DNA of 64,000 bases from Prostheceraeus crozeri (Eukaryota > Platyhelminthes > Polycladida > Euryleptidae): NCBI GenBank assembly GCA_907163375.1, contig CAJQUW010008996.1, positions 377,001-441,000 of the forward strand, read 5' to 3'. The number at the start of each line of letters is the position of its first letter. The stretch's first letter is position 1. Both the position numbers and the translations under genes were made by a program. The notes beneath the pieces are model-generated. The model searched no databases, was not told where the DNA came from, and saw nothing but the letters and a program-made list of their open reading frames with translations. Shown one piece after another: positions 1-27,472 of this stretch.

Positions 1-2
1 GC

Positions 3-434: not shown

Positions 435-521
435 TGCATGCTTGTTACAGTTATTCAATAAATGTTACTATGAGAAGAGTTGTTGTTTTCATGCAATGGA
501 TGGTTTAGATAAAGGGCGATC

Positions 522-931: not shown

Positions 932-938
932 AAATGCA

Positions 939-1299
939 GTGGTACTTGATTGTAGCACAACTGGTTTCGAGCTATGCCTGCTCACTCTCGAAGTATATTA
1001 CTTCTGTATATGCGTCTATTATTTAGAAAAGGCTAGAAAATTCATATCTTCAAAAAGACTTGCTATAGACATCAGTAACGGTGAAACTATGTGTTGCGAT
1101 GTATTTAAGCGAAAGGATGGAAATGAAAAGCGCATCTTCAAGAGATGTAAGCATGCTTTTTGTCAACGCTGATTCATACGTAATTGCATTCAACTTTGCA
1201 AATGTAACCACTGTGATATTGCTCATTTCGAGTGTCACTTATGCCGTAATAGTTAGTACCTATGCAAATGTGGTAAACGCAGGTTTTAGCAAAAACTAA
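939..1299 (+). pseudogene. Decayed Cys/His-rich ORF (possible zinc-binding protein)
   Basis: In the frame of positions 1143-1290 the translation is strikingly Cys-rich: CKHAFC, then after an in-frame TGA at 1170-1172 a dense CKCNHCDIAHFECHLC cluster, then after a TAG another CKCGKRRF. The spacing C-x-C-x2-C-x3-H-x3-C-x2-C suggests one or two zinc knuckles. Two in-frame stops make it a relic if real. The upstream part of the frame has no recognisable domain. It sits between the PolB-N-like gene and the basic protein gene. It could be chance, but Cys density this high in AT-rich DNA is uncommon. Confidence 0.3.
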
Positions 1300-1307
1300 C
1301 ACGGAAA

Positions 1308-1669
1308 ATGGCGAAACGTAAAATGACGAAACGTAAAAGTCAAAAGTCTTCAAAGCTTTCTTCAGCCATTCAAGCTCTCCGACGAATGAAAGCAAATCAG
1401 CGATACAATGCTATACGACATGCTAACGATAAATTCATTCGTGAAATTATTTCTCATGTGAGAAAGTTGAGGACGAAGAAATTAGCACCAAAACAACGAA
1501 AGTTACGTAAGCGATATGCTACGAAATTGCGTTTCATCTGCAATCCTAAAGTCACCCTTCAAAGAAAAAGGGAAACTCTAACACAAAAGGGCAGATTCCT
1601 TCCAGCGTTACTACCGATGCTCCTATCGTGGGCAACGTATTGGGTAATATCTTTGGCTGTAGACGTTAA
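1308..1669 (+). pseudogene. Small basic virion-type protein (adenovirus pX-like position)
   Basis: The ATG at 1308 starts a Lys/Arg-rich protein (MAKRKMTKRKSQKSSK) with about 90 residues of mostly basic helix. The hydrophobic Gly-containing tail expected of such core peptides lies in another frame (APIVGNVLGNIFG, stop 1667-1669), implying a frameshift near 1608-1616. Without that shift the frame runs straight on into the ATPase, producing an artificial 276-codon fusion. A basic core or condensing protein just before the ATPase is a common Polinton arrangement. A DNA-binding or core role is inferred from charge alone. I prefer two genes because the ATPase has its own ATG at 1701. Confidence 0.5.
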
Positions 1670-1700
1670 TTATGCAAATGTTGAATCTCAAAGTATTATA

Positions 1701-2317
1701 ATGGATTTCAGACTTCAATGTGATAAAGTTCTGACTGTATCAGGTCTATCTCATGCAGGTAAAACTGTTTTCACGCTGAATTTATTGGATAAAAGAAGGG
1801 AGTTGTTTAAGGAACCTACCAATCGAGTGATTTGGTGTTATGGCATTTATCAACCGTCGCTGTTTCAGGAATTGCAAAGTCACAACTTTATTCGACATGA
1901 AGGAATTATTCCAGTGAATAAACTTCAGTCTAATGATGTTGTTGTATTGGATGATCTATTAAAAGAAAGTAAGAATTCCAAAGATGTTACAGATATGTTC
2001 ACTCGCGCAGCACATCATAAAAGGTGCTATATCATCGATATCACACAAAATTTGTTTACTGATGGAAAAGAAGCTCGTACACGAAACCTGAATACACACT
2101 ATTATGCTATTTTCAAGAATCCGCGAGATAAAAGTTAATTTGAAATTTTAGCGCGACAAGTTGCACCCAGAGGATCAAAAGCCTTAATTGAAATTTTTCA
2201 AGCAGCTACTGAAAACCACACGGTTACTTATTCATTGACTTTACGCAAGAGTGTCCGGAAGAATTTAGATTTCGAAGTGATATTTTGAAAACTCCCATGA
2301 TTATGTACAAACTATGA
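1701..2317 (+). pseudogene. Polinton genome-packaging ATPase (FtsK/HerA-type), broken
   Basis: The FtsK/HerA-type P-loop ATPase packages DNA into the capsid in Polintons and related viruses. Walker A is GLSHAGKT at residues 15-22 counted from the ATG at 1701. Walker B is VVVLDDLL at about residue 80-87, followed by the conserved Asp-Met and HH-K regions. An in-frame TAA at 2136-2138 interrupts the C-terminal third. A frame change near 2216-2222 is needed to reach the conserved acidic-aromatic C-terminus (FTQECPEEFRFRS), which ends at 2315-2317. That stop overlaps the next gene's ATG as ATGA, a compact viral arrangement supporting both boundaries. Family assignment is confident; function is lost. 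Confidence 0.85.
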
Positions 2318-3006
2318 GTTCTTATTCTCGCATGATTGTTATTCCTCAGGATTAATATGTACAATTGACTGCTATACAACAAGTAAAGCAACCTCTTGCA
2401 AATCAAATGTATAGGAAAGAATTAGATTATCAGCAAAATGTTCACATCAAAGATCCACATCGTGCTGTATTATTACAATCGGAAACTGTTGAACAATTGA
2501 AAAATTTGAAGAATAAGATGCGTGACTCTGTGTCGACTGCTACACCTTTAGCATCTTGTGCACATGCCATATCTCTTTTCAACAGTATTGAACCTCACCT
2601 CAATGTAAATGATAGAGGAGAAGTCATTACAGATGAAAATAAAGTGATTGATGCTTCACTTCATGAAGACTTGATTCAGTATGCGACACGTAGAAAGCGC
2701 CGTCAGGGCTATGTTCCACCTGGTTGGACATACTTTCTTAAACTATTGAAAAAGCATAATGTGCCAAAATTTGCTTTGAATAATGAGACATTGAAAGAAC
2801 TTGATTCAACAGTGGCTACTGCTTCAATGCTTCAGACGATGAAAATGCCAACAAATTGGTTTAAGACGTCACCTGCTACATCCCCTCCCACACTCACTAA
2901 GCAAACAAGAGAAAGAACTCGACGTAGATCTACGCCACCACTAAAACTAGTAAAAGGAAAACGTAAAACAGCTCCTCCCAAGAAATTCATGTTCTCAGAC
3001 TATTAA
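2314..3006 (+). pseudogene. Conserved Polinton structural/accessory protein, nonsense-mutated
   Basis: The start ATG at 2314 overlaps the ATPase stop by four bases (ATGA). The frame reads MSSYSRMIVIPQD, then an in-frame TAA at 2353-2355, then is open to 3006, about 230 codons in all. The protein has a helical middle (EQLKNLKNKMRD), a GWTYFLKLLKKHNVP stretch and a basic Pro/Thr/Ser-rich tail with a likely nuclear-localisation cluster (KRKTAPPKKF). It resembles a conserved Polinton protein lying between ATPase and integrase whose role is not known. Virion association is inference from position. There is no ATG between the nonsense codon and the conserved region, so it is broken rather than restarted. 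Confidence 0.6.
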
Positions 3007-3007
3007 T

Positions 3008-3223
3008 ATGAAGCAGATGTGTTGCTTGCCATGTAATGAGCGGCCAGAGGTGAATGTCGTTGTCACTTGCACTTGCTGCGCCAGCTCTCACAATGAAACC
3101 CCTAAGCAATGTGAACACGATCGCAAAACCGCTAAAGCTAAATGCTGCAGTTGTTGTAGATGTAGAAAGGCAAGAAAACAAAAAGATGAGAAGGAGGAAA
3201 AAGAGTCAGTCGTCATCGACTGA
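3008..3223 (+). CDS. Cys-rich mini-protein (71 aa)
   Basis: The ATG follows the previous stop by one base. The 71-residue product has 13 cysteines in CC and CxC pairs (MCCLPC, CTCC, KCCSCCRC) and then a highly charged Lys/Glu tail (RKQKDEKEEKE). This could bind zinc or other metal, or act as a small nucleic-acid-binding peptide. No known family is recognised. Its 3' end overlaps the start of the integrase (ATG 3186) in another frame, as in compact viral genomes. The frame is intact, unlike its neighbours, but at this length that carries little weight. Confidence 0.4.
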   Translation: MKQMCCLPCNERPEVNVVVTCTCCASSHNETPKQCEHDRKTAKAKCCSCCRCRKARKQKDEKEEKESVVID

Positions 3224-4280
3224 ACGTTTGAAGTCAATCTATTATGATGTAAAACATCCGGCAGGATTTGCATCTATCAAGAAATTATCAAAAGCGAGTG
3301 GTCTTCCACAATCATAAGTAAAACGATGGTTAAAGGGTCAGGCTACCTATACAGTACACTCCACAAACAAGCGAAAAAGAAGTACCGCACCCTCCATTAT
3401 ATTGTTCATGACATCGATGAACAGTGGCAAGCAGATTTGTGTGATGTTGCCTACATTTCAAAACATAACTCGGGCAATAATTTTTTTTTAACCGTCATTG
3501 ATATTTTCTCGCGTTATGCGTGGGCTCAACCTTTAAAAACTAAAGAAGGGAAAGGAGTAGCAAAAGTATTCCAAACAATTTTTCGAGAAGGTCGCATTCC
3601 AAAAAGAATTCAGAGTGATCAAGGAAAAGAGTTTGAAAATCAGCATCTGAGAAGATTATTTGAGAGGCATGACATTGAGTTGTTTAGTGTAAAGAGTGCT
3701 TATAAAGCTGCACTCGTTGAACGTTTTAATCGCACATTAAAAAATCGCTTGTGGCGACATTTTACTGCCAACTTGACACAAAATTGGACAAAGGTTCTAC
3801 AAGATACACTCCATGCCTACAATCACTCTATCCATCGTTCTATTGGACTCAGACCAGTAGATGTAAATGCTGACAATGTAGATAAAGTGCGCGAATCATT
3901 CCAACGTAAACGCACTCATGTGAAAAGTGATGTGAAAATTGGTGATAAAGTTCGTATCTCAAAAGTGAAAAGTGTTTTTGCTAAAGGGTACCTTCCGAAT
4001 TGGACAGAGGAGGTATTTACAGTATCAAGGATTGATCAAAAAGACTCTCCCACCACCTACAAGTTGAAAGATTACGATAATGAAGAAATTGAGAGTAGCT
4101 TTTACCGCGATGAGATTGAGGTAGTCAATGAAAGTGAAACATATTTGGTAGAGAAAATCATTCGATGTAAAAAAACGACAAGGTGAAGAATGGTGTCTTG
4201 TTAAATGGACTGGTTATCCTTCAAGTATGAACTCTTGGATGCGTCGTGCCGACATCTTTCATCTAAGTGATCGACAGTGA
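3186..4280 (+). pseudogene. Polinton integrase (rve, DDE) with C-terminal chromodomain, broken
   Basis: The integrase inserts element DNA into the host chromosome. From ATG 3186 comes a basic N-terminus and a helical HHCC-like region, interrupted by an in-frame TAA at 3315-3317. A frame change near 3375-3382 leads into the rve core. The catalytic residues are visible: Asp in WQADLCDVAY, Asp in QSDQGKEF and Glu in LVERFNRTLK, with 33 residues between the last two. After the SH3-like segment (VKIGDKVRIS) another frame change near 4165 is needed to reach a chromodomain remnant (WCLVKWTGYPSSMNSWM), which ends at 4278-4280. Polinton integrases with a C-terminal chromodomain are established. Three lesions make it a pseudogene. 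Confidence 0.88.
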
Positions 4281-4321
4281 TTTATGCAAAGTTGTAACTA
4301 ACAATGTTTAGGGTTTGAGCT

Positions 4322-4777
4322 ATGAATCCAACTGCCTCATTTTATTCACGACCCTCCTATGTAAGTGGTGGAGGACAAATTTACATCGGCGCTCGCCACC
4401 AACGTGGAGGTAGCATACTTAGCGCACTGAAATCTGTTGTAGCACCTCTCATATCCAATGTCGGAAGATCTTTAAAACGAAATGTTTTAAGTAATGCCGT
4501 TGGCTTTGCTGGTGATGTTGCTAGTGATCTTTCCAGAGGTAAAAGTTTTAAGAGCAGTTTGTTGAATCGTGGGAAGGAACGCGGTTTAAAAACATTGAAG
4601 CAGACCCTTGCTGGTGCTACTCAAGGAAAGAAGTCGCCTAAACGAATGAATAAAGGAAGAAGGAAACATCGCGGAGCTGGTAAGGTGCGATCTTCAGTCA
4701 AAAGGCATTCACGCAAACGTCGCAGAGGCTCTAATCATTCATCAGGCGCTAAACGACGACGCTGCTATAACTTCTAA
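4322..4777 (+). CDS. Basic Gly-rich virion protein candidate (151 aa)
   Basis: This is an intact frame from ATG 4322 to TAA. A Ser/Tyr/Gly N-terminus (SGGGQIYIGARHQRGGS) leads into an amphipathic helix (ILSALKSVVAPLISNVGRSL), then a Ser/Lys-rich linker and a very basic Arg/Lys tail with bipartite nuclear-localisation-like runs (KRHSRKRRRG, AKRRRC). Proteins of this type always lie directly before the Polinton major capsid gene. By analogy with adenovirus minor and core proteins it may bind membranes or DNA inside the particle, but that is inference. The gap to the capsid ATG is two bases. Confidence 0.6.
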   Translation: MNPTASFYSRPSYVSGGGQIYIGARHQRGGSILSALKSVVAPLISNVGRSLKRNVLSNAVGFAGDVASDLSRGKSFKSSLLNRGKERGLKTLKQTLAGATQGKKSPKRMNKGRRKHRGAGKVRSSVKRHSRKRRRGSNHSSGAKRRRCYNF

Positions 4778-4779
4778 TC

Positions 4780-5801
4780 ATGGAGTGTAAAACTTCCGGG
4801 TTTTGTTTGTTTGATCAACAAGCCATACAGACAGATATTCTTAGTTCAAGTATTGTAGATTATCATCTTCGAACAGCTGAGAATGCTGGCCCCACTGAAT
4901 TTGTTATTCCTGGTGGTAGTGATGACTACATAGATTTGAGTTATGCGATGGTTGATTTGAGGTTTAGAATTCAGCAAGCAGATGGAACTGCTATTGACGA
5001 TACACATAAAGTTGGACTGAACAATTTACCATTGACTACATTACTTCGCGATGTTTCTCTAACGATTGGAGAGCAGCAGGTGGAAGATGGTCAAAGCGAT
5101 TATCCCTATAAATCATATTTCAATCATGTATCACAGTTTCATCCAGCAGCACAAAAAAGTCATATGGAAGCCATGGGATGGTACAGAGATGAAGTAGGAA
5201 AATTTGATGCTGAAACAAACAGTTGCTTTGTAAAGCGATCTGCTATGATTAAAGATGGTAAAGTATGTCAGCTATATGGTCCGCTGAATTTAGACTTTTT
5301 TAGACAGTCAAAGATGACATTGAATAAGCCTGAATTTGCGCTGAATGCATTTGGTAAAGTTGACAATTTTAGAATTCATGTGGAAGATATTGAACTGTAC
5401 ATTCGTCAAGTAGTACCGAATCCAAGTGTCATTAGAGGGCATGCTGAAGGTCTTAACCGCCAAAATGCCATTTACCCCGTTCAGCATACAAAGCTTCTCA
5501 CCTTTACAATTCCGAAAGATCAAAAGAGTTTCATGAAAGATGGCCTTTTTCCATCGGAAGCACCGAAGCTCCTCATGGTGGCAATGGTTGAAAATGATGC
5601 ATTTAATGGTAATATAAAGAAGAATCCTTTTAATTTTAAACACAATCAGTTAAGTGAAATTGCTTTACGTGTAAATGGTGTTAGTCATCTTGGTCCACCC
5701 TACAAACCAGATTTTTCTACGGATCAATTTATGCGCAGTTATGTTGATTTTATGGATGTCTTTGGTTTTTACAATACGGATGACACCAACGGACTTACTA
5801 T
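4780..5801 (+). pseudogene. Polinton major capsid protein (hexon-like), 5' part
   Basis: This is the N-terminal two thirds of the major capsid protein, about 340 codons, open from ATG 4780. It belongs to the double-jelly-roll capsid lineage, and in animal genome annotation the same family appears as the F54H12.2-like protein. Visible marks are TEFVIPGGSDDYIDLSYAMV near the N-terminus and DVSLTIGEQQVEDGQSDYPY, both typical of the first jelly roll. The gene is cut at 5797-5801 by a LINE in opposite orientation. The codons after that point belong to the LINE tail. The coding frame resumes at 8599. Confidence 0.88.
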
Positions 5802-8598
5802 AATAATAATAATAATGCTTTTTTTATTTGTGAAAATGAAAATCAGAATGTAGTGCATGGTAATACTGCTGCATACAGTGCCATAAGATCATTGACAAAA
5901 GAATTTTAAGAGAGTTATCATACTATGCCACGAAGTAAGTCATTATGCACAATGGTTGAAAACACAGTAAAGCAGTTTCTACGTCTATCTGTATGCGAGT
6001 ACGGGACCAAGACGCGGTCGTTCTGCATTGGCTGAACAATGGAGTGAAGAGGATGAGTCGGAGATTGCGCTGAAGAAAAGAGTCCTCTGATCATTTTCAG
6101 TCGTTTTTCATGGATGCTGTTGTCATACCTTTTGCAGTTGCATAATTTTGGACAAATAATCCGACGAGCGCGTCGCCATAATCTATCTATAATATTCATG
6201 CTTTTGAAGTCCAATGAACCGAAGAGTGGAGAACAGTAAAGTAGAACACTTTCGATCAGTGTCTCGTACACTTTCCAGAGTTCGTCATGATTGAGAACTG
6301 GTCTTAAAAGACGAAGAAAGTAAAGTCGTCTTGCACAGCGGGACTCCAAAACACGAAAATGACTTTGCCACATGAGATTTGATGACCAAATGACGCCCAA
6401 AAGCTTGAATTCAGAAACCTTCCTGATGGGCAAGGTAAGCTCGGTAACGTCAGAGTTCTTCTTTGGAAACACAGATGCAAAAGATTTTGACTCATTGAAG
6501 GTAAGACCGTTTAAAATTCCCCATTGACGGATGTTGTTGAGTTCATCATCTGCCAAATTTGAGATGTAAGAAGGCTGCAATTGCTGTTTGACTTCTATCG
6601 CTTCGCATATGTCGTCTGCATATTGCATGATAAAAGTATCATGATGAATAGGATTGAGGTCAAAACAATATGCATTGAACAAGTAGGGCCCTAATAAGGA
6701 GCCCTGAGGCACACCACTTCCGACTTGCTTTTGATGACTAAGCGTGGACTTGAGTCTTATCCTCTGTGTTCTACCATGGAGATAATTGTGAAGCCAGGCT
6801 CTGAAGCCAAAGGGTAGACGAAGCATTCTGAGCTTTTCCAATAGTAGCTCATGCGATAACGAGTCAAATGCTCTGCTAAAATCGTAGGACAGCAGTACAG
6901 TAGCGGATACACTTGGATTGTCCAAAGACTTCGTTATACGATCATGCAATGCGATGAGAGCCGACGTGGTACTGGATTTAGGTTTATAGGCGAACTGAAA
7001 ATTCGGAGAACAATGAAGCAATGACAGTTTCACAGAGTTCAAAACTTGCCGTTCGAGTAATTTACTAGGAACGCTCAGCAGTGAGATAGGACGGAGCTGA
7101 TTGAGTTTCGCCGGTGATGTCTTCGGTATAGGAGTGATGATACACTCTTTGAATATTTTCGGAACTCTCCTTTCGAGAACAGAGGAATTAAGGATGTTGC
7201 ACAGGGGCTCGGCAATAAAAGGCGCTGCAATTTTGTAGAAGCGATTAGGAATTCCATCGGAGCCAGTTGATTTTGAGACGGAAAGTTTGTCGAGAGCGTG
7301 GAAAACGTCTTGGACTTCTGTAAGCGGTAGCCAGTCGTTAAAATCTTCCTCTTGTTCCGGCAAAGGAAGGACGTCACGATCGCAGAAACCGACGGTTACA
7401 GCTTCATGAATAGCGTCTGCTGCTGCTTCGATGCTGTCGCAATCAGCTACGATGCAGTCAAGGGGATTTCGAAAAACTTTTCCAGTTACATCTCTGACAA
7501 GAGACCAGAAGTTTTTATCCTGACGCTTCAAGTTATCACTCCATGCTGCTTTACACCTCTCGATCATCTTTTTGCATTTAACCTTGAGGCTGTTAAATTC
7601 AGCAAAATCACCACTTCGGAAAGCATTCCACCGTCTTGTTATCAATAATTTAAGGTAGGGCGTCATCCATGGCTTGTCTCTTGGAGACATGATTACGATA
7701 TTCTGAGGGATCAATGACAGACACGACCGGAATTTCTCATAAAATATCATAGCTTTAACGTCTACATCAGGTTCAAGGTATACCGATCGGAAGTCAATTG
7801 ATTGCAGCTGATTCATAAATGCATTCAAATACTGAGCTCTGCAGTCGAACACTATACGCTCATTAGAATTGTCTATAGTGTCTGCTTGACTTGACTTCAG
7901 GAGCACTTGGCAGTGAGAATTGCGACGTTTTGAAAAGGGAGGTGGACCAACTTGAGCTCTGGGATAATCATCCTTAAGGGCATTACTGATATAAAAGGCG
8001 TCGAGGATGGCATCATCACGCGTTGGATCAAAAACCTTTTGCACCAGGTTGTGTGAATTGGTAATAGGGTCAACTTTCAACCGATTGAAGTCTCCACAGA
8101 AAATTATATGAGATGTAGGACTAGAATCCATGAGCACGTCAAGTTCACTAATAAAGAAATTTTGGAGTTGCTCATCAATGGCGCCACTTCTTGTTGGTGG
8201 AATGTATGTTGCGCAAAGAATGTATGTGGTGTTCCAGACTTTGAACGTGAGGAAAACATGTTCTCCAACAGGAGTGGCCAAATGTGGCAAATAGCGTTGA
8301 ACTGAAATGCTAGAATTCGACCAAACAATGACTCCACCACCCATTCTTCCTTCTCTATCCATTCGAAACGAAATATAACCATCAATTTGGAAGGGCATTG
8401 GGTCATGACTGTCATTTAACCACGATTCTGTGACGATGATAAAATCAGGCCGAATAGTGGAAATGGTTAGACGTAGTTCATCCATTTTTCCTGGAGAGGC
8501 GATTGATCTGGCGTTGAACATGAGGAAACTAGGGAAGTATGTATCACGGAAGATGTGAGCTTTGGGATAACGTGAGAGCGGAAGAAGCCCTGAGAGTC
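5802..8598 (-). mobile_element. Non-LTR retrotransposon (LINE) inserted in the capsid gene
   Basis: This 2,797-bp insertion is in reverse orientation to the capsid gene. The sequence ACTAT occurs at 5797-5801 and again at 8599-8603, a 5-bp target-site duplication. The 3' end lies at the left with a (TAA/ATT)n tail at 5800-5815. The open frame runs into the right junction without a stop, so the element is 5' truncated inside its ORF. A related 3' end occurs at about 36,970. The ORF is intact, so the insertion is younger than the decay of the Polinton. Confidence 0.9.
5918..8598 (-). CDS. LINE ORF2: APE endonuclease plus reverse transcriptase (5' truncated)
   Basis: The frame is open from the right junction through an internal ATG at 8519-8521 to a stop at 5918, about 890 codons. 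An exonuclease-endonuclease-phosphatase domain comes first, with NARS, TESWLND, GGGVIVW and CGDFNR blocks. The reverse transcriptase follows: SDGIPNRF, a YDFSRAFDSLSHELL palm motif, SGVPQGSLLGP and the catalytic YADD (IMQYADDICEAI). The C-terminus has a Cys-rich patch (RRARRIICPKLCNC). Domain order and motifs fit the CR1/Jockey-type group of LINEs, and I do not assign a clade. No nonsense codon is seen, so the copy was probably made recently by an active master element. Confidence 0.92.
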
Positions 8599-8826
8599 AC
8601 TATGAAAGAGTTTAAGGGTGGATCTACTATTTATGCATTTGATTTGACTGCTGACAGCGATATTAGTGCACCCTATCGTCAAGCGAACGTGCCTCATAAT
8701 ATTCGTTTGGATTTGACGTTCAAAGGAACACTACCTGAGACGATCAATGTATTAATTTATGCAGTCTTCGATTCAAACATTGAAATTACAAAGTATCGTG
8801 ACGTGATTCTTCAGTATAATTGTTAA
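8599..8826 (+). pseudogene. Polinton major capsid protein, 3' part
   Basis: This is the continuation of the capsid gene beyond the LINE. Conserved C-terminal blocks follow directly after the duplicated target site: GSTIYAFDLTADSDISAP, IRLDLTFKGTLPETINVLIY, and a final strand ending at TGT TAA (8824-8826). Together with 4780-5801 the whole capsid gene is present apart from the insertion. The protease frame starts within the last codons, as a short overlap. Confidence 0.85.
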
Positions 8827-9287
8827 CGAGTTGGTTTACTACTGACGATATTAAGACTAAAGTGCAGCGTAATGCAGACGAAGCGACGTTGAAAGCTTTC
8901 GATAATGTCTATTCGATCGATACCTTACCACCTGCAGTAAATCACTATCCCATCTTTATTGTGCTAAACACTCATTCGCAGAATTTAGGCGGTAAGCATT
9001 GGAAAGCGATCTTTATTGGAGAAGACCGACGTGGTGAGCTATTTGACTCTCTTGCTCAACCTCCAAATATACCAACAAAGCAGTGGTTGAGAAAACATAC
9101 GCGTCAATATCAGCGAAATGAACGCATACTACAACATCCACTCTCATCAACGTGTGGTGCTTTTGTACTGTACTTCATCTTAAAACGTTTACATGTATCT
9201 CGATTTGTATCTGTTATTCAAAACTTTTCATGTAATCCATCCTCTAATGAAAAAATGATTTGTAAGTTCTATCATGATCTGAAATAA
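8820..9287 (+). CDS. Adenain-like maturation cysteine protease
   Basis: This is a C5-type cysteine protease that processes virion proteins in adenoviruses and Polintons. Catalytic residues are visible: His in GGKHWKAIF (residue 60 counted from 8820), Asp in ELFDSLAQ (about 76), Gln in ERILQHPLSS (105) and Cys in STCGAFVLYF (112). Length of about 155 codons is slightly short for the family. The frame opens with TTG LTSW at the overlap with the capsid stop and has no upstream ATG, so the start codon may have been lost by one base change. Otherwise no lesion is seen. The stop codon overlaps an AATAAA polyadenylation signal. Confidence 0.85.
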   Translation: MLTSWFTTDDIKTKVQRNADEATLKAFDNVYSIDTLPPAVNHYPIFIVLNTHSQNLGGKHWKAIFIGEDRRGELFDSLAQPPNIPTKQWLRKHTRQYQRNERILQHPLSSTCGAFVLYFILKRLHVSRFVSVIQNFSCNPSSNEKMICKFYHDLK

Positions 9288-9289
9288 AA
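9284..9289 (+). terminator. AATAAA polyadenylation signal overlapping the protease stop
   Basis: The hexamer AATAAA includes the TAA stop of the protease (GAAATAAAAAC). Only 24 bases separate this stop from the stop of the convergent TBP-like gene at 9314, so the two transcripts probably overlap at their 3' ends. Confidence 0.5.
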
Positions 9290-9313
9290 ACATCATGTTG
9301 GAAAAATTGTTTT

Positions 9314-9859
9314 TTATATTACAATCCGCTGGGTACGTACGTACTCGATGAGATAGTCTAGGATCGCATTTGCTTGTACATGAGATTTTAGTCCAGTAAT
9401 GATCATTTTACTATTATGAAAGATTGCAACATGCACAGGTAACCAACAACTAATGAGAGCTGCAGGAAAAAGTTCGGGTTCATAACACAAATTGTAACTG
9501 CTGGTACGAATCTTCAAAACTGATACACTTTCACTCAATTGAATGGAGATCACCATATTGTCCACAGTCAGATTCGACATCACACACCTCTCCCTCTTCC
9601 ATATCTGACGTAGTAGTCTCTGTAGCTCTAAGCGCATTGACTGCGCCGATGAATGAAAAAGGGCGCCGAGAATCTGTACAGTCCCATTTGGGAAGAGTTG
9701 AAGATTCCGTGAATTGTTCATCTTCACCACTAACATTTGAGGTCGGCCCGGGTAATACTTGCTGTTTGGAAGGTGTTGGTGTAATGTTGTGAGATCGATT
9801 TTGGTGTAGAGTCTGAAGCGACGGAGAATGTTGACGATGGTGTAGCGATGGCGCTTCAT
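9314..9859 (-). CDS. TATA-binding-protein-like (TBP-fold) protein, viral
   Basis: This 181-codon frame starts at ATG 9857-9859 (MKRHRYTIVNIL) and matches the length of a TBP core of two pseudo-repeats. Repeat 1 has an N-V/I-strand start, a YYPGRPQMLVV helix-strand, and NLQLFPNGTVQILGAL, which corresponds to the F-x-x-G-K/T-V-x-x-x-GA signature. Repeat 2 is clearer: VDNMVISIQL, SYNLCYEPELFPAALI, then HVAIFHNSKMIITGLKS. The block YEPELFPxxI followed by F-x-S-K-x-I-x-TG is the hallmark of TBP repeat 2. The likely role is to recruit host RNA polymerase to viral promoters. It has no nonsense codon despite heavy decay around it. A longer frame to 10003 adds only codons overlapping the neighbouring gene. 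Confidence 0.75.
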   Translation of the reverse strand: MKRHRYTIVNILRRFRLYTKIDLTTLHQHLPNSKYYPGRPQMLVVKMNNSRNLQLFPNGTVQILGALFHSSAQSMRLELQRLLRQIWKRERCVMSNLTVDNMVISIQLSESVSVLKIRTSSYNLCYEPELFPAALISCWLPVHVAIFHNSKMIITGLKSHVQANAILDYLIEYVRTQRIVI

Positions 9860-10185
9860 GATGAAAGAATGAGTAAATTGAGCGATGTACCTTCCTTTTA
9901 TACTTCTCCCAACTACCTTGATGAAATGTGAAGTTAGTATGAAGTTGGGAATGATAGAGTTGAATTCGCCGATTGTTGACGCACAACCAGATGCGATTTC
10001 CAATACGTGAATGTCTTTTCATATAGAAGTATTTCAAATCCTTCATGCATGATATAATGTAGAGATTGAAAATGACGATAAGATAAAGCAAGCTCTCTTC
10101 TCACATTTCCAGTTGAATCTTTGAAATAGACGTTTCGATCATGATCCGTTTCAATACGTTGTAGGGAATCTAATTTCCAACTCAT
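9860..10185 (-). pseudogene. PC4-like small protein, copy 2 (frameshifted)
   Basis: The ATG at 10183-10185 starts a protein parallel to the intact copy at 10208-10576. Shared marks are LDSLQ, a D-x-N-V-Y-FKDS turn, an L-S-Y-R-H-F helix start, W-x-K-Y-K-R-x-VHRSI near the end. The N-terminal part (to about 10035) and the C-terminal part (GNRIWLCVNNRRIQLYHS onward) lie in different frames, so there is one frameshift. In the second frame the original stop is gone and the frame runs on into the TBP-like gene. Identity to copy 1 is moderate, so the duplication is old. Confidence 0.5.
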
Positions 10186-10207
10186 GGTGTGTGGTAGTCA
10201 TGTCTGA

Positions 10208-10576
10208 TTAAGATTTGCATAGTAGGGCGATGAACTCACGACGAATAAATGTCATGATGGAGCGATGTATGTATCTTCTATACTTCTCCCAATTGTATTT
10301 GCGAAATGAGAAACAGTTTGCGGAATGAGAATGGTAGATTTGAATTTCATTTCTGTAATGTTGAAGCCAAACTCGATCACCCAAGGAGATGAATCTTAAT
10401 GTTTCAAAATATTCCAAATCCCTCATGATATCATTGAGGTTGACAAATTGTCGCCATGTTAATGTAATACCTCTTGATGTATGACCATGAGAATTTTTGA
10501 AATGTACGTTTCCATCACGATCAACTCTGATATATTGTAGAGAGTCCAAAATCCAAGTCTTCATGATGTTATGCAA
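10208..10576 (-). CDS. PC4-like small protein, copy 1
   Basis: This is an intact 122-codon frame. The N-terminal half reads LDSLQYIRVDRDGNVHFK, a short turn, then SRGITLTWRQFVNLNDIM. This strand-strand-(K/R)GI-S/T-L-x-x-x-Q-F/W-x-x-L helix order resembles the C-terminal single-strand-binding domain of transcriptional coactivator PC4. The second half is rich in Tyr, Trp and His (NWEKYRRYIHRSIMTF) and unknown to me. It lies head to head with the minor-virion gene at 10600 across 23 bases that contain a TATAAAA box. Together with the TBP-like gene it may form a transcription-factor cassette. The PC4 link is a pattern match, not proven. Confidence 0.5.
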   Translation of the reverse strand: MHNIMKTWILDSLQYIRVDRDGNVHFKNSHGHTSRGITLTWRQFVNLNDIMRDLEYFETLRFISLGDRVWLQHYRNEIQIYHSHSANCFSFRKYNWEKYRRYIHRSIMTFIRREFIALLCKS

Positions 10577-10599
10577 AGTCGCAGATCAGCAATATAAAA
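10577..10599. promoter_or_regulatory. Compact divergent promoter with TATA-like box
   Basis: Only 23 bases separate the start codons of two divergent genes. The sequence AATATAAAA ends directly at the rightward ATG (10600). If it is a TATA box it serves the leftward gene or lies downstream of the rightward start, so real promoters may lie inside the neighbouring coding regions. Confidence 0.3.
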
Positions 10600-11997
10600 A
10601 TGTCGTTTTATCATATTTTGCTTAGCAATGCGGCCGCAAATAGATTTGCTAGTAATCGAGCCGCACTCTTTTCTACTCCCATTGATCATACACAACAGCT
10701 AAATGGAAATTGGGAAGTGGGTGTCACTCAACTTGTTTATAGCAACTGTGTCTATACTTTTGATCATCAGTTGATGACTATTAATATGAGGCGTACAGCT
10801 GCTTACCAATGTGAAAAGGGGTGCCGAGTATACATTCCACAGTGGCCAAAGAAAGATCTCTTATCATGTAAAAAGTTTATATATGATTTCTTGAATAAAG
10901 CGTGTAAACATATTGTCCAATTTACTCCGCACAATGATGATTATACCTATGTACATCATGTAGTTGAGAAAGATTGGATTGTTGGTTTAAGTCCAAGTTT
11001 AAGAAATAATTTACGTTACCTCGCTAGCGCCTTAACAATCTATGATAATTATAACGTTAATTACCACCCAAGTGGTCATAAACAGTTAATATATCGAGAG
11101 GAAGCTTATTATGTAGATCTTATTCCAAAAAATGAGAAGACGTTGGTGAAGAAGATTGTGATTAAGCCAAGAAAGACAAACATGACTTCTGAAGCACTAT
11201 TGAAGAAATTTAATTATCTCCTTTGAGTTGATGGTAAACAAGTGGCAACATTGACTTATATCAAATCATCTACTCATATTGTAATAAGTAAATTAAATGA
11301 TGATGATCTAGTATTAGTTTGTTCAAAAGATTTTCATCAGTTCTTACGACATCGTTCTGCAGCTGTTCATTGAAAATTTGATATGCAACATTTGCCATGT
11401 GAAAGGTCAAATCAATTTGATACAGAATGGACCGTATCTTTATACAGAAAGTGTGTAGAGCCTTTAGGTGGTATCTTACATGAAACAAGAGTGTTGATGC
11501 CTCGCATTATTACTTCAGTTAAATTGGTTGTACATTATTTAAATGAAGTGATTAATGAGCAACATATTTCATTTTCTGAAAAAGAAGGTACTTTGTCTCT
11601 CACTATAAGTGGAAAAGGTATTGAACTAATTATGGATAAAACTCTAATGGACATTTTGGGTTTTGATCAAAATATCTTTAAAAGTGTTACTGTAACCAAA
11701 GCTAGCGCAGACATGTCGCTATCGCGTCGTATTAACTATTTTCAGATATATTCCAATATTGGTGAAGATGTACGTGTTGGAGATGTTGAAGCTCCATTGC
11801 TAGCAATGATACCATACCAGCCAAAAAGCTGCAGTATTTTATCTGAGCATACTTTCAAGAAAGTGCATTATACAAAGCTGAAATCAAACTACATCCCACA
11901 AATTGATATTGCAATTTATGACGATGCTGGTGCGTTGATTCCTTTTCATAAAGATGCTGTAACAAGTATCACACTCCATTTCCGAATGAAGAGTTAA
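10600..11997 (+). pseudogene. Minor virion protein, WEVG family, copy A (two nonsense codons)
   Basis: The frame from ATG 10600 stays the same to 11997, about 465 codons, interrupted only by TGA at 11224-11226 and TGA at 11371-11373. The N-terminal signature is HILLSNAAANRF followed by NGNWEVGVTQLVYSN, shared with copy B. The C-terminal half holds DKTLMDILGFDQNIF and a final hydrophobic strand. Proteins of this type accompany Polinton capsid genes and are probably minor capsid or vertex components, but I do not assign penton status. The same frame on both sides of both stops indicates point mutations only. Confidence 0.6.
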
Positions 11998-12036
11998 TGC
12001 AAAAGTATGCTAATATATTTTTCCATTGTGATTAGT

Positions 12037-13563
12037 ATGGAAAGTGAAAATAGAGATTCGTTTCTAATTTACTTACCCAGTAATGCTTCTATGGATAAAT
12101 TTCCCAAAAATAAACCATCAGACTATCGAGTAGAATTAAATCGTCCACTACATTTAGAAGGTGAATGGGAGGTTGGCGTTTCTAGTATTTGCTATGATAG
12201 CAATATTCAGAATGTGAATGATGTGGAAGAAATGATATTGACTCCTCGCACCCATGATGGAATAACGATGAATAATGCATTCCAGTTCCCATACAATTTA
12301 ACGTCAGATGGAAAGTGGAACTATGAATGGATTCAGATAAAATCAGATTATTATGGTCCATTTGGGAATGAGAAAATTATTAAGGCGTTCAATAGTGGTA
12401 ATACTTCCATCATGAAGAATAAGGATCAGAAAGTTTATGAGTTTACTATCTATCATTGGAGTGGGAGACAGTTCCTTCGGTTTCATTGTTTTACTAAAGG
12501 TCTTACACTGAGGTTGGATAATGAATTCCATCCACATCTCGGTTTTGGCCACGGACTACATCTAACGTCAATTGCTACTGCAAATGTTAAAAAAGTTTAT
12601 TCAAGTCGAATCAACAAATTTCATTATAAATTTAAAATATTTGATGAAGATGTTGTAGAATGTGAAGAACGCATCATTTTGAAAAAGCGTGGTGTTCAAC
12701 CTTTATCACTTATTGAGTTAGTAAAACGATGGAATGAGACTGTGGGTAAGAAGTATGGAGAGAAAATTATGGCGGACAAAAATAAGTTGGTCATTCAGAA
12801 ATAGGATGACAAACTTACAGTTTATTTCTATCCAACCTTGCGTCATTTTGTAAGACATTATACACCTACATGTATTATTGGAAGCGGTTTGGTTTATGCT
12901 TCTCATGAATATCACACTAAAGCTGATTCAGTTGATGATGAATGGTGGGTGGACATCTATGGTGATCGCATCAAGAAAATTTACCAGTCTTATCAAGAAT
13001 CTAAAGTTGCTATCAATATAATGCCGCGTCTATATCATACAGTTGAAAGCTTCATTCATGTAGTAAATCCTTATATACAACAGAAGTTGAAGCATGTGAT
13101 GAAAAGTAAATATGATGTAAAGACACACCAAATTTCGTTTTCAATTGAAAATCAACGCGTTGTTCTGAAACTGGGTGATGACATTCAATGTCAATTGAGT
13201 AAAAATTTGAAAAAACTCTTTGGTTTTTCAATGCTACAAAATATGTTTACTGCTGCGCATGCGATTGGTATAGAAACACCAATGACACTTGATAAACATG
13301 AACAACACCTTTACATTCAAAGTGATTTGATTCTACCTATTTCTGTTGGCGAGGAAAAAGAACACATTTTACGTGATTTCATTCATGATAAGGATGCTTC
13401 ATATGGAATAATCGAGAAGATGTTTCAACCTATTTTCTACCATCCTGTTATCAAACAAACTATACCCTCTACTTCTATCAAAATTACAAATGGTCTACAT
13501 GAGTGCATCCATTTCAAAGATACTAAATCTCTCGTAATTTTAGTGTTTCGGAAAACAAAGTGA
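12037..13563 (+). pseudogene. Minor virion protein, WEVG family, copy B (one nonsense codon)
   Basis: The likely start is ATG 12037 (MESENRDSFLIYLPSNASMD); an upstream in-frame ATG at 12007 would add ten residues. The family mark LEGEWEVGVSSICYDSN follows. A single TAG at 12802-12804 splits a frame otherwise open to 13563, about 508 codons. The C-terminal half parallels copy A (KNLKKLFGFSML; hydrophobic end strand LVILVF). Copies A and B lie in tandem 39 bases apart and are clearly paralogous, but diverged. Function is inferred as for copy A. Confidence 0.6.
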
Positions 13564-13578
13564 AGTCATTGTGATATG

Positions 13579-13592
13579 TTTATTGAAATAAA
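13579..13592. terminator. Back-to-back polyadenylation signals of convergent genes
   Basis: TTTATT at 13579-13584 is AATAAA on the minus strand, serving the polymerase that ends at 13743. AATAAA at 13587-13592 serves the plus-strand minor virion gene that ends at 13563. The two hexamers lie two bases apart between the convergent genes. The rest of 13593-13742 shows nothing else. Confidence 0.6.
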
Positions 13593-16500
13593 AATATGTG
13601 TATGAAAAAGTCTTTTCACAGATATAGGGGGAATGGGGTGACTGTAGGCATATATTTACAAGGAAGAAACGATCTAATGCGATACATAAAACAACCATGT
13701 ATATCTACAAAAAGCAACATCAAAATACTGAGTTAAAGTTGATTATGTCAATACATCTCCTGAATGTGGTAGCGTGAGTTTTATTCTTTTGGGTGGAGGT
13801 ATGTTTGTGTCAGGATGTCCATGTGGAAGAGATGTGTTATGTCCATTCCAACACCTCTTATCCTCCCATGCTGAAAGCGCTCGTTTCTTGAACGTGTGCG
13901 TTTTCACAGTATAAACTTGAGATTTTAAGATTGTCATATTGACAAACGTTATAGTTTTATTTTTATAGGCCTTCTTATAGGAGCGATGTTTCTTTTTGTG
14001 AACAATGGATTTTGTTATACTTTTAGCACGCTTAATACTATCTGCACATTCTTTTAATTTCATGGAATACATTTTAGGACGGGGAGTAGAATCATTTCAT
14101 CTATTTCCTTTCCTGCTGTTTCATCCTTAAAACAACCAAGTTTGGCTTTATTCTGTATGGAATAGAGTGGATGAGTGGGATTGTAGTTAGATGTGTCGAA
14201 ATATTTTTCTGATGACTTAGCTACTTCATTAAAATTTAAATCTTTTTGAGTGGTAATACCTAAGAAGAAACTATCTGTATCACTACCCAACAAACGAACC
14301 TCTTTTACGAGAGGACATGGTTTTAGTATTTTATAAGAGTTGGTACATTTCAAGCTTAGAGTAATCTAGTACAGCTTGGCCAATATAGATGGGCTTCCAC
14401 AACTCAACTTCAGATTTTATCATTTTAACACCTACAAGGTCCTCATCGATAATGTCTCTATCGATGAATAGAGGTGATGAGGTCAATTTGTGATATTTTT
14501 GATCATCAATGACTAGTTTGTAGTTCATGCGTTTTTTTAATATCCTCCATCGTCTTACCAAATAGACTATTATTCTTATACTTATAAAAATCCTTTTCAA
14601 AATTATTTTGGGCTAGTGCACGTTTCTGGCTGTTACTATCTATGTAAGGTTTGAGGAAGGCTTTCTGTCTAAATTTGATGATGCGGTGAACTGACTTTAT
14701 AAGCATGCCCATTTCTAAATAGAATTTTAGTATGTAGAAGTGCACGAGATAATTTTTCTTATCATATTGGGTAAGTAAAAGTTTGCGGCATGGTTTATAC
14801 CTTGGCTGTCCACACTCTCTTAAGTCATCATGAAATTGTGACATGAATGGTGAAAGCATATCTTCAGTCACTTCACCAGATTCAGGTGCGAGTGGGAAAT
14901 CAGCAGTTTTATTTTTAATGCTATTTGGATAAATCAAATCCACTTCAAAATAACATCCCCAATCACCTTCATCTGAAATCTACAGTATGTTTGAAGGGTT
15001 GGAGTAATACTCAAGCTCATCTTGTTTTAACCAACTAAACTCGGAATGAGGTAGTGGTTTAGACAGTGAACTGCCATATAAATTATTTTAGTCATAGTAC
15101 TTTAGGTAGATATGATCATCACCTACTGTTTCAGATTTTATATGATGTTTATTTACAAATGTGAGACCACCACGTATTCCTTGCTCAAATATGTTATACA
15201 TCTCGGGGTCTTTTAAGAGATGAATGGTCTCACCAGTCATTTTAAAAGCAGACTTAAATGACATGGCTGGCAGACTGACAAAGTGGACGAGATCTAACTT
15301 ATCTTCTTCTAATGCCACTCGTCGAATCTCCTGAAATACATCAGCCAGCAAAAATACATCTAACTTAAGATAGGCAATCATATATTTGCCAAATGTATGG
15401 CGGTCAAATTTCATCCATGCATCTTGTGCATTATCATAATCTTCGGTCTTACATTCTGCGCCGGTCAAATCATTTTTAAATTTATCTATGGGCGGAAGAG
15501 AAGTCTCGCCGAGTTTACTAATCGCATCAAAATATGCATATGGAAAGACTCCTTTCCGTGTGATGACTTCATCGGTTAGATTTGGATATTGTTTCTTAAG
15601 ATTTTGTGTTAGTGGAAGAGACTTTAGATTTTGTACGAGAGAGGCCAGTGATGCAGTCATAAATTGGTAGGAATCTAAAAATTTTTTATATCAAAATAGA
15701 CCGTCTTATTTTTTTTAGTTTTATCGACAGGCACTTTTGCTGTCAGGGCCATAAACTTCTCTCTCGTTTGTGCTATTTCATCAAACTTCCACTCTTTCAT
15801 TTGACCTAAACCTCCTTTTATTATCATATGGCTGTCGTAGCCCTTGAAATTATGGAAAATGACGGGTAATGTACGCCGTTTCATCCTAAGTGAAAAATTG
15901 CATTTTGAACAGAGTGCGTTTCTAAATTTACCAGTGATGTGATCATGGTTGCGCACTTTCTTAATCTTATCATCATCAAATGTTTTACTACATTTGATGC
16001 TAACGTTGCAACTATCAAATTTTGCTTGATCATCTGCTGTCATATGCAATGATCTGCGATAGAGTTTAACATCATACTTTTATTGAAATTTTACAGCCTG
16101 TTCGAAGAATTGTAGGAATTGGTAAATACAATCTTCACCTTGACAGACGTGCATTTTATTTTTTCTATTTTGGAAATGGTCATGCCATACTTCATATCAG
16201 GATATGACTGCTGGCTTGTGTATGATATCATCGATATAGTATTCTATGTCTGTGTATATGACACGAAGAGGACTTAGTTCATCGCCATTCTCTCTATGTG
16301 AAAAGATTTTGTCTTTGGGCATGCGTTCCATTTGTAATTTACCCCGCTTGCACCATTCATAATGACTTAGAAATTTATGTTTACTCCAAAAGGAGCGGAT
16401 GCAGCGGTCGCATACAAAATGTTCACCACTTTTAGAGTGTCCCAAGTGTGTTTACAAGCGAGAGATTTTGGGAATACCACAGTAGTGCCATTCCTCGCTA

Positions 16501-17531
16501 TCATCTTGTTCTACTAATAAGAGGTTGACTGCACGTTCATAACAAGTTGAACGTGAATTATAGCGGTCACCCTTCAACCCCTTCTCCCACACGTGAACTA
16601 CAATTTTAATCTGATTATGTTTCTCGAACGTTTCTTCATCTTTTATTTTCATGTTGTCACTATCACAACCTTCAAAGTCTAGTTCATCCTCCCACTGTCT
16701 ATAGCTATAGGTGCGATCTCGATGCGCGTTGATATCATTATAGTGGAGAATGGATGGGACGGCATATTTGAAACACTGCGATTTACAATCGACATTGATG
16801 ACAGCTTTCTTATTACATAACGTTTTTGGTAGTTTAAATGTGCCTCGAGCTGCATGACTTTCTAATAGGGAAATTTTGAACATGGCTGAGTCCACGCCAT
16901 CAAAAATGAGAGCGCTGTCGCGCTGATTGAACTTATCTACATTTGATTTTAGACATTGAATATGGAAATTTAGCCAAGACTCGCAGTCTACAACTTCGGT
17001 TGCGGAAGAGGAAGGAACATGAAACTGCATTCTCTCCGTCACTTGACCCGTTTGAAAATCTATTTTAATATATTTTAGTTTGAGGTAGATGAGCGCCTTC
17101 ATTCTAAAATTGTCTAAATTGTTGAAGAGCGCTTCGATAATGTTAGAATTTTGAAGGAGCCACCCTGGAAAATCTACTATTTGAGTATTGGACTCCATGC
17201 AGTAGTCGCGTACTAAATGACTATGGGAAACGTCAATGAGGGAGATTGTAGAGGTACCGTTGGTGTAGTGATCATTTGCATGCGTGTGTTGAAGTCTGTG
17301 CGAAGATCGCTGAAAGGGGCTATCGAAAGAAAGAGGGCACAAATCACAAGGAAAGGAGATGTCATCGTCAGAATCAACTTCACCTCCGGAGATTGATGCC
17401 GCTTTGCGTTGACACACACGTTGTTTGATGTGTCGAAGGAGACTGTGCTTCCTTGTAAAAATATGTCCGCAGTCAGCACATTCCCACTCGTTGCCTTGTC
17501 GCGAGAATCCTGAGCTGGAACTAACATCACC

Positions 17532-17589
17532 TGAAAGAGAAATCATTCTATCATCTCTATTTAAGTCTCAGTGTATTGTTACAACCTAC
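17532..17589 (-). other. Intron 2 of the Polinton polymerase gene (58 bp)
   Basis: On the minus strand the donor GTGAAG|GTAGGT lies at 17590/17589 and the acceptor TTTCTCTTTCAG at 17532. Removing it keeps the frame of the 61-bp exon 2 (17590-17650) in register with the zinc-finger exon. The ATG inside this intron (17544-17546) gives only an artefactual start of MISLS. Confidence 0.7.
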
Positions 17590-17650
17590 CTTCACTCAAC
17601 AACTCTAAACGTTCCTCGAGAAGGGAGGGCTTTGGTGATGAAGTAGATAC

Positions 17651-17717
17651 CTGAAATTGAGGAAGATGCTATTAGTCACACGTTTGAGGGAGATGAGAGA
17701 GGAAATCTTCAACTTAC
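17651..17717 (-). other. Intron 1 of the Polinton polymerase gene (67 bp)
   Basis: On the minus strand an ATG at 17720-17718 is followed at once by GTAAGT, a consensus donor. The acceptor CCTCAATTTCAG ends at 17651. Exon 1 therefore contributes only the initiator Met, and exon 2 adds 20 codons plus one base. Frame is maintained through both junctions. Confidence 0.7.
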
Positions 17718-17861
17718 CATTTCAAGGAAATTATGTTTAAGGTTGATTCTTCAACAAGATAGAGACTTCACTCAAACAAATACGTCTTAAATTTGGAATT
17801 TACTAGAGAACACTTCACTTACACGTCTCAAAGACATAGTGAAATGACACGAATGTCACTT

Positions 17862-17930
17862 TGCATATATACTTTCATATTCATCATTCATTGGCTATTC
17901 ATTCTGATTGGTTGCTTGTTTATACTTAAG
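17862..17930. promoter_or_regulatory. Bidirectional promoter between polymerase and rightward ORF
   Basis: A TATATA box (17864-17873) faces the leftward polymerase gene. Two ATTGG sequences (17890-17894 and 17907-17911) are CCAAT boxes on the minus strand. A TTTATAC box (17919-17925) lies 44 bases before the rightward ATG at 17969. The arrangement fits a divergent promoter using general host, or viral TBP-like, transcription factors. Confidence 0.5.
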
Positions 17931-17968
17931 AATTAGAAAACATTTCAAAGTTATTATTCACAGTCAAC

Positions 17969-18328
17969 ATGACAAGCCCTCCGACAACACCGAACACGAC
18001 ATTGGAGTTCTCTTCTCCATGCTCATCGCCGAAGGCGCTCGTTGCGCCAAACGCTCCAGCGAAGGGGGAGGTGGAGAAAGTATACCGACTCGACAACATT
18101 AGAAAGTTGTCAATACCAGCGGACGACGAAGAGGAGAGTGTATGTGAGAAGGAGTGTCCCGACTTAACAGGCGTGAGGTGGAAGTATCTGCAGTACGATA
18201 CTGATGATGTGATGGAGATCACCAGCACACAGCGGTTAATTCGGCCGCACACACACATTTTGATATTAAACTTCTTGTTTTTATCGTTGTTTACCATGGT
18301 TAACTGTGAGGTAATGAAATTAGTATAA
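17969..18328 (+). CDS. Small accessory protein with C-terminal hydrophobic segment (119 aa)
   Basis: The ATG lies 44 bases after a TATA-like box. The protein starts with a Ser/Pro/Thr-rich disordered segment (MTSPPTTPNTTLEFSSPCSS), has an acidic middle (PADDEEESVCEKECPDL), and ends in a 17-residue hydrophobic stretch (ILILNFLFLSLFTMV) like a tail anchor. No known family is recognised. I checked for an LxCxE Rb-binding motif, seen in some adintovirus accessory proteins, and found none. Its place next to the element's end and its own promoter suggest an early accessory gene. Confidence 0.45.
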   Translation: MTSPPTTPNTTLEFSSPCSSPKALVAPNAPAKGEVEKVYRLDNIRKLSIPADDEEESVCEKECPDLTGVRWKYLQYDTDDVMEITSTQRLIRPHTHILILNFLFLSLFTMVNCEVMKLV

Positions 18329-18334
18329 GTTTTG

Positions 18335-18900
18335 AATCATGTAGTATACAGCCTAAAGCATAACACTTAGTGAGGAATGATAGATTTGAGTGTAGTGAGT
18401 GGCAGTCGATCCCGTCGACAGCCCGAAGGCCTTGTACTGATCACTAGGGAAGTGAAAGATCTTCCCCGATACCCGCTATTTACAGCTGAAGACATCATTG
18501 TCACTGCCCCGAAGTGGTAACAGCAACGCCGAGCCAAAGGTAGTGATCAGTAGCTGGGATCTAACCCCTCAAAGCTGCCTTAGCTTTAGTTAAATTTCAA
18601 ATCTGATAGCAGATTTGAACTCAGCAAACTTGAAAACCTTAGACTACAAGTTAAAACTTTGAAAAAACTGAAAATTAAGAATTTTTAAAAAATTCCCCAT
18701 TTTACTACTCATACTACTTTTAAAAATTTTATCAGTAGTAAAGACACTATCATACTCTATCACACAAACTTTGAAGTAAGAAGATAGCTTGCCTACTTCA
18801 AAAGATAGAGTCCTTTGAAACACCCGATATCGGGAGATCAGAGCGACGACCGTCGCTTACCTCGTCTTTCGATGAAGTGATCAGACTTACGTTGCCGGGG
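18335..18900. other. Non-coding segment rich in short palindromes
   Basis: No gene is seen. The segment contains TACTGATCACTA near 18,431 and its inverse TAGTGATCAGTA near 18,541, the stem TTTGAAGTA...TACTTCAAA around 18,770-18,800, and the perfect palindromes CCCGATATCGGG and GACGACCGTCG near 18,825-18,855. This may be part of the Polinton terminal repeat or a structured RNA. The partner repeat is outside the window. Confidence 0.4.
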
Positions 18901-27398: not shown

Positions 27399-27472
27399 CT
27401 AAAATGAAAAAAAATACATGCTCATAAAACAAAATTGAATTATTACATAAGGTCACCTAAGTTGTTACATAC
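27399..27472 (-). other. Intron in the pogo transposase (74 bp)
   Basis: On the minus strand CAACAG|GTATGT begins the intron and TTCATTTTAG|CATTCG ends it. Codon phase is kept between FYKPLST and FEIEAQSF. Confidence 0.7.

Follow-up and report, generated by a model that had tools for sequence, protein, structure and literature searches.

Three genes lie on the minus strand of a degraded Polinton/adintovirus-like element, between its protease gene and a plus-strand gene that starts at 10600. Two of them are small and related, and we call them paralogue 1 and paralogue 2; the third belongs to the TBP family. The element occupies the left part of the window, by which we mean the whole 64-kb stretch of DNA that was analysed. 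Coordinates are collected in Table 1.

Table 1. Features of the cassette, of the element that carries it and of the boxes discussed in the text
Feature	Positions	Strand	Remarks
Degraded Polinton/adintovirus-like element	~1-18 kb of the 64-kb window		Integrase, protease and PolB pieces
Integrase (rve)	3326..4186	+	Pfam PF00665, E 1.6e-11
Ulp1/adenain-like cysteine protease	8820..9287	+	PF02902, E 3.8e-4, 20.8 bits (cut-off 20.7)
Type B DNA polymerase piece, broken	15088..15660	-	PF03175, E 9.4e-6, 25.2 bits (cut-off 25.8)
TBP-family gene, 181 codons	9314..9859	-	Pfam TBP; intact, ATG to stop without lesion
Paralogue 1, tandem PC4-like/Pur-alpha-like gene, intact	10208..10564	-	118 codons from the ATG at 10564
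Paralogue 2, N-terminal piece	10042..10185	-	48% identity to paralogue 1
Paralogue 2, C-terminal piece, other frame	9855..10046	-	44% identity to paralogue 1; 3' end overlaps the TBP start
TATGCAAA	10570..10577	+	30 bp before ATG 10600
TATGCAAA	10214..10221	-	36 bp before the ATG of paralogue 2 (10185)
TATGCAAA	4283..4290	+	39 bp before ATG 4322
TATGCAAA	1261..1268	+	47 bp before ATG 1308
TATGCAAA	1671..1678	+	Weak: 30 bp before internal ATG 1701 of ORF 1308-2138, not a listed start
TATGCAAA	17860..17867	-	Weak: 30 bp before ATG 17837, which opens only 16 codons here
TATAAAAG	9895..9902	-	43 nt upstream of the TBP ATG, within paralogue 2; 3 copies in 64 kb, both strands

The element

A retroviral-type integrase, a type B DNA polymerase and an adenain-like protease make up the Polinton/Maverick gene set. 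All three are present here, the polymerase piece scoring 0.6 bits under its Pfam cut-off and the protease 0.1 bits over that of PF02902; against PF00770 the protease gives E 0.037, below the cut-off. The polymerase is of the viral/organellar kind, and its pieces lie on the minus strand at about 14-17 kb. Two capsid candidates, 4780-5853 and 4322-4777, have Pfam matches below the cut-offs only and a putative resemblance to the adintovirus capsid. We take 4780-5853 together with 8539-8826 to be the likely major capsid gene. A non-LTR retrotransposon ORF of 867 codons (5918-8521, minus strand), with endonuclease and reverse transcriptase and without an internal stop, is inserted in the element and likely splits this presumed capsid gene in two. 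A search of positions 1-20500 for terminal inverted repeats gave three weak pairs, none of which bounds the element; the copy is degraded and its left end may fall outside the window. Neither an RNA polymerase gene nor a TFIIB gene was seen among the ORFs scanned, and the 64-kb window holds no tRNA and no Rfam family.

Several other frames deserve a brief description. The plus-strand frames 10600-11226 and 12007-12804 share an N-terminal pattern (LNGNWEVGVTQLVY and LEGEWEVGVSSICY respectively) and look like paralogues, with no Pfam family above the cut-off. The plus-strand ORF 1308-2138 is one open frame in which a basic N-terminal part, rich in Lys and Arg, is followed by a P-loop ATPase-like part that begins near 1701. 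To the right of the element lie several transposon remnants. In 19757-22565 a reverse transcriptase piece is followed by a weak GIY-YIG frame, both below the Pfam cut-offs, as in Penelope-like retroelements. Two GIY-YIG-like frames, 34086-34547 (minus) and 34608-35102 (plus), stand head to head in a region (about 33989-35193) whose short outer stretches are nearly identical on opposite strands, and which looks like an inverted duplication. The minus-strand frames 48689-49483 and 27465-28124 encode transposases of the Tc1/mariner type (HTH_Tnp_Tc3_2 and DDE_3) and of the DDE_1 type.

A family of TBPs

The original prediction gave the 181-codon frame the two-repeat layout of TBP and noted that it has no lesion, and we agree on both counts. 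Its product passes the Pfam TBP model (PF00352) in two matched stretches (E 5.3e-20, 71.5 bits, cut-off 22.9) and contains the two blocks singled out at the time, CYEPELFPAALI and FHNSKMIITG. Structure prediction, the check then proposed, gives a TBP saddle whose two repeats span all 181 residues. Identity to the solved TBPs listed is 19-26%. A database of 5.8 billion sequences yielded 68 candidate proteins, of which 56 qualify as relatives at E <= 1e-3 and share 31-76% identity with the window TBP over the alignment. The Pfam match and the 56 relatives together mean that the frame is not there by chance. The worry that it might be an overlap without homologues can therefore be dropped, and the PC4-like genes have homologues too. 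What is new here, as judged from sequence, is this family of 56 related TBPs, known from protein sequences, with the Polinton setting seen for the window copy. No locus came from viral contigs in searches with the TBP, the TBP alignment, the PC4-like protein, the capsid-like ORF, the integrase and two other family members; nor did one come from genome contigs searched with the TBP alignment, or from phage records. By eye the relatives fall into two groups, P0002-P0043 and the more divergent P0044-P0057. Members of the divergent group carry a G-R-P-T-M-L and FFPNGT signature.

In yeast TBP the four intercalating phenylalanines are F99, F116, F190 and F207, and the residues that contact TFIIB form an E-x-E-L sequence in the C-terminal stirrup. 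We set residue roles and positions against the yeast numbering, and counted over up to 57 rows. The C half keeps the DNA contacts N101 (57/57), V103 (57/57), F131 (56/57), F147 (57/57) and T155 (56/57); at the V213 position, the sixth contact examined there, 39 of the 57 rows have I, 12 have M and 4 have V. The residues that face TFIIB are kept as well: E127 in 56/57, E129 in 57/57 and L130 in 52/57. With most of its C-half DNA contacts and its TFIIB contacts in place, the protein would be expected to have kept the ability to bend minor-groove DNA and to bring in host TFIIB and RNA polymerase II.

The N half tells a different story. N10 (48/48) and F56 (57/57) are retained there. The first intercalating phenylalanine (F99 in yeast) has given way to Pro in 53 of 54 rows while the other three, F56, F131 and F147, are kept, and the canonical four-Phe set of a TATA-box TBP is not found in this family. 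The Val122 position, Q62 in the window protein, is Gln in all 57. The Thr124 position, L64 in the window protein, is Leu in 53 and Met in 4 of 57. Among 50 rows the Val71 position has Met 34 times, His 11 times and Leu 5 times. Polar residues at the Q62 position also occur outside the family: the archaeal TBP of Methanocaldococcus has Asn there. Because the replacements are as conserved as the residues that were retained, the N half looks remodelled, not decayed. With its N-terminal repeat remodelled, the TBP would be expected to favour a site different from the TATA box of the host.

The small genes

Two related small genes on the same strand as the TBP gene, with N-terminal halves resembling PC4, were part of the original prediction. 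Both are present and they are related to each other. Paralogue 2 (10185 to about 9855) turns out to be broken by a frameshift, its two frames joining near 10042-10046, and the TBP start codon sits within its 3' end in a different frame. Paralogue 1 has 122 codons if it is counted from a TTG (10576-10208); four homologues, P0058-P0061, also start at the position of its ATG at 10564. The likeness to PC4 survived modelling in a changed form. The predicted structure is a tandem PC4-like fold of two strand-rich units, each closed by a helix, and the likeness spans the whole protein instead of its N-terminal half. The model is also nearer to Pur-alpha than to PC4 itself. Foldseek against the PDB gave no match at E <= 0.001 (PURA rank 2, E 0.077), and it is a second structural comparison, not Foldseek by itself, that makes Pur-alpha (PURA) the closest fold.

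Sequence does not support membership of the PC4 family proper. Pfam has no match for paralogue 1, the PC4 model matches none of 8 rows, and a PDB profile search returned no PC4 chain, so the PC4 likeness is one of fold. A tRNA_int_endo match of an 83-aa frame (Pfam E 0.051, below the cut-off) was set aside as chance.

Apparent recurrence of the pairing

Synteny can be approached indirectly through those relatives whose sequence extends above the TBP start, by reading the N-terminal extension as out-of-frame PC4-like coding sequence. Extensions of at least 20 residues up to the TBP start are present in 13 of the 56 relatives; those of the other 43 are not long enough. For both of the other frames, all readings compatible with the codons were scored against a PC4-like profile, with 20 column-shuffled profiles and 60 shuffled extensions for each.

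Eleven of the 13 extensions are best placed at the same spot in one frame, the TBP start Met falling on profile column 109 (10 cases) or 108 (1 case). Against the column-shuffled profiles ten of these placements reach z 2.5 to 7.2 and P0030 reaches 0.7. A profile made from paralogue-1 rows only, without the paralogue 2 of the window, gives the same placements with z 2.0 to 5.5 (P0030 0.4). The shuffled extensions never reached the score in 9 of the 13. The exceptions are P0009, for which 1 of 60 shuffles reached it, P0030 and P0053, with 10 each, and P0044, with 22. When the other shifted frame is read, 2 of 13 beat all 60 shuffles: P0026 with end column 38, at an unrelated position, and P0030 with end column 108, close to the expected one. 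For this reason P0030 favours neither frame. The two that fail the placement, P0044 and P0053, both come from the divergent group; they are the members of that group that could be scored, and their upstream sequence has no PC4-like overlap. It is important to realize that the eleven cases are not independent, because the extensions are related to each other.

Two further observations concern the pairing directly. A TBP (P0002) and a PC4-like protein (P0059) are each 79% identical to the window genes, and each has a longest contig of 1771 bases. Another homologue, P0062, runs from an apparent paralogue-1 tail straight into a paralogue 2, in the order seen in the window. With 11 of the 13 readable extensions fitting a PC4-like gene whose overlap with the TBP start falls at one shared position, the pairing, and with it the cassette, seems to be conserved.

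A candidate promoter box

The octanucleotide TATGCAAA was first noticed by eye in printed upstream regions. It stands 30-47 bp before 4 of the 14 listed gene starts, always in the sense direction, and is absent from the other 10. Six copies fall in positions 1-18,500, the element, and 2 in the remaining 45.5 kb. No other 8-mer is as frequent upstream of the 14 starts, and 3 of 3000 sets of windows placed at random in the same element attained its count; the best 7-mer and 6-mer counts were reached by 47 and 794 of 3000. With other window sizes the 8-mer count was reached by 1 to 65 of 2000 random sets and the 7-mer count by 2 to 174 of 2000. Over the whole 64 kb the box shows no surplus: 8 copies stand against 5.74 expected, and 19 of 100 shuffles reach 8. 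The two outside the element are likewise followed by an ATG, at 45 and 49 bp, and four of the six inside it have a nearer ATG too. A downstream ATG alone therefore proves nothing, and the cases at 1701 and 17837 are weak. ORF 1308-2138, whose ATPase-like part seems to begin at the first of them, might represent two genes that became joined in this copy of the element. Because the box was noticed by eye first and its total in the window is unremarkable, we treat it as a lead, and a promising one, for a promoter element.

Ordinary TATA boxes are also found. Besides TATAAAAG upstream of the TBP gene there is a TATAAAA just before ATG 10600. Enrichment of TATT-box and TATA sequences upstream of genes was uninformative: TATTWAA 0 (0.26 expected), TATAAA 2 (0.91) and TATAAAA 2 (0.34). 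Of the 11 relatives that fit the overlap, 10 have Ile-Lys at the place of TATAAAAG, a pair of residues that ATAAA in the DNA could encode. This Ile-Lys might be imposed by the overlapping PC4-like protein.

What the cassette may do

We think it somewhat more likely than not that the cassette serves a Polinton/adintovirus-like element as its module for transcription initiation, and that promoters are recognised for the element by its own TBP-family protein. The family, the predicted fold, the residue pattern and the fit of the overlap are the grounds for this reading. The original prediction had said that the element brought its own promoter-recognition factors, and these observations support it; use at the element's own promoters is something we infer. 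The TBP gene would first be read by host TBP from TATAAAAG just upstream. The element TBP would then bend minor-groove DNA and dock host TFIIB and RNA polymerase II through its C half, while the remodelled N half would give it a preference for a site that is not the host TATA box, the best candidate being TATGCAAA. In this way it could activate further genes of the element, much as beta- and gamma-herpesviruses use their TBP-like proteins at late TATT promoters. Its presumed partner, the PC4-like protein, would bind the melted single strand, in the role of a coactivator or of a single-strand binding protein for the element.

It is nearly an even call that TATGCAAA is a host POU/octamer site, a replication signal or a chance repeat, and that the element TBP reads ordinary TATA boxes. 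Such boxes are at hand before ATG 10600 and before the TBP gene, chance could give the count of TATGCAAA under some window sizes, and ATGCAAAT is the classical octamer site of host POU factors. The narrow range of distances to the ATG (30, 36, 39 and 47 bp) and the sense orientation in all four cases resemble those of a TATA box, however; octamers usually lie further upstream and in either orientation. A separate doubt concerns the partnership. The PC4-like genes could be replication proteins, binding single strands during strand-displacement replication and merely lying beside the TBP gene, with no joint transcription module. We regard this as a serious possibility, one we lean against. A modelled fold closest to Pur-alpha suits it, as does the element's DNA polymerase of viral/organellar kind, and PC4-like-fold domains are described as binding DNA and RNA and separating strands (PMC11042805). 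But the overlap with the TBP start, which fits 11 of 13 scored relatives, argues for coupled expression, even if coupling is no proof of a shared process.

The TBP-like protein itself can also be read in other ways. It would be a decoy if it docked host TFIIB without directing initiation and so dampened host transcription. Near-invariant TFIIB contacts beside a DNA-contact face that is half changed are what a squelcher might show, and so is the low identity to solved TBPs. We still think a decoy quite improbable. Five of six C-half contacts examined (N101, V103, F131, F147 and T155), as well as N10 and F56, hardly vary, which is the pattern that selection for DNA binding would leave, and the new N-half residues P40, Q62 and L64 are conserved, which looks like a changed DNA contact and not a lost one. 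Least credible is the idea that this one element happened to pick up a TBP paralogue or pseudogene of its host. The element is indeed degraded and sits in a host genome, but the closest relatives of its TBP are the family of 56, with fixed signature residues and 19-26% identity to solved TBPs, and PC4-like sequence seems to travel with the gene. That idea is already largely contradicted, and it has very little chance of being right.

If the cassette is an initiation module as we propose, the element may choose its own promoters and not rely only on those of its host. A bolder version, which we consider rather unlikely in full, is that Polinton-type elements run a private two-step programme. 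Host TBP would read an ordinary TATA box, and the rebuilt TBP made from it would recognise TATGCAAA, whose central G-C step, disfavoured by normal TBP, would be read by the family-invariant Gln; a PC4/Pur-like partner from the overlapping gene would help to open the promoter. A compact element TBP with a conserved companion would give Polintons and adintoviruses a promoter switch comparable to those of herpesviruses or giant viruses. The element TBP would also be a useful marker for intact elements, and a natural experiment in altered TBP DNA preference in a protein small enough for direct tests.

Comparison with known systems

In the searchable literature we found no explanation of how Polintons or adintoviruses turn on their genes. 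Among the literature matches listed for Polintons, Mavericks, adintoviruses and viral TBPs, a scope that leaves out the adintovirus founding paper (doi 10.1093/ve/veaa055), we found no description of a TBP in a Polinton or adintovirus. The words TATA and TBP are absent from PMC11071308, PMC10120064, PMC9683012, PMC5803895 and PMC8715426; TATA is absent from PMC8363768 and occurs in PMC11640650 within a primer only and in PMC12220804 within an author name only.

Like cellular TBP, the TFIID subunit (PF00352), the element protein has a two-repeat saddle, invariant repeat asparagines, three of the four intercalating phenylalanines and a TFIIB-contact EPEL stirrup. It differs in its 19-26% identity, in the first intercalating Phe, which has become Pro in a G-R-P motif, and in the concave face of the N half, where Val has become an invariant Gln and Thr has become Leu. 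The fold predicted for the small gene has as known members Pur-alpha repeats I-II, MRP1/MRP2, Whirly and PC4. Within the same class of elements its structural likeness is to adintovirus MOSUB proteins, BFVD A0A5H3CIS2 (rank 2, Foldseek probability 1.00, TM 0.69 by query) and A0A5H3CT48 (rank 8, 0.98 and 0.56). The MOSUB proteins differ in having about 200 residues. Their E-values, 7.5e-3 and 4.4e-2, indicate weak matches; the top rank goes to an unnamed protein, and phage proteins stand in the same ranking.

Giant and algal viruses encode TBP as well, according to reports on Megavirus chilensis, Chrysochromulina parva virus BQ1 and the Yellowstone Lake phycodnaviruses (PMC11464507, PMC12085832, PMC4602308), and for CpV-BQ1 the authors propose that its TBP redirects host RNA polymerase. 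TBP is also reported in 59% of mirusvirus genomes (PMC10132985) and in elements of mirusvirus origin (PMC10675990). The likeness to our element is that a DNA virus-type element encodes a TBP. The difference, compared by description, is that those are large viruses, the giant ones with their own TFIIB, whereas here the TBP is in a small Polinton-type element with no TFIIB in the ORFs scanned. Herpesviruses offer what may be the closest functional analogy. The TBP-like proteins of beta- and gamma-herpesviruses, such as EBV BcRF1 and MHV-68 ORF24, bind late TATT boxes, are only distantly related to TBP and act in a multi-protein viral complex (PMC4893493). They share with our element a TBP-family protein of the element's own and a possible variant TATA box at its own genes, a parallel of function. 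As far as such descriptions go, the element's protein stands apart from them as a compact, recognisable TBP with a PC4-like neighbour.
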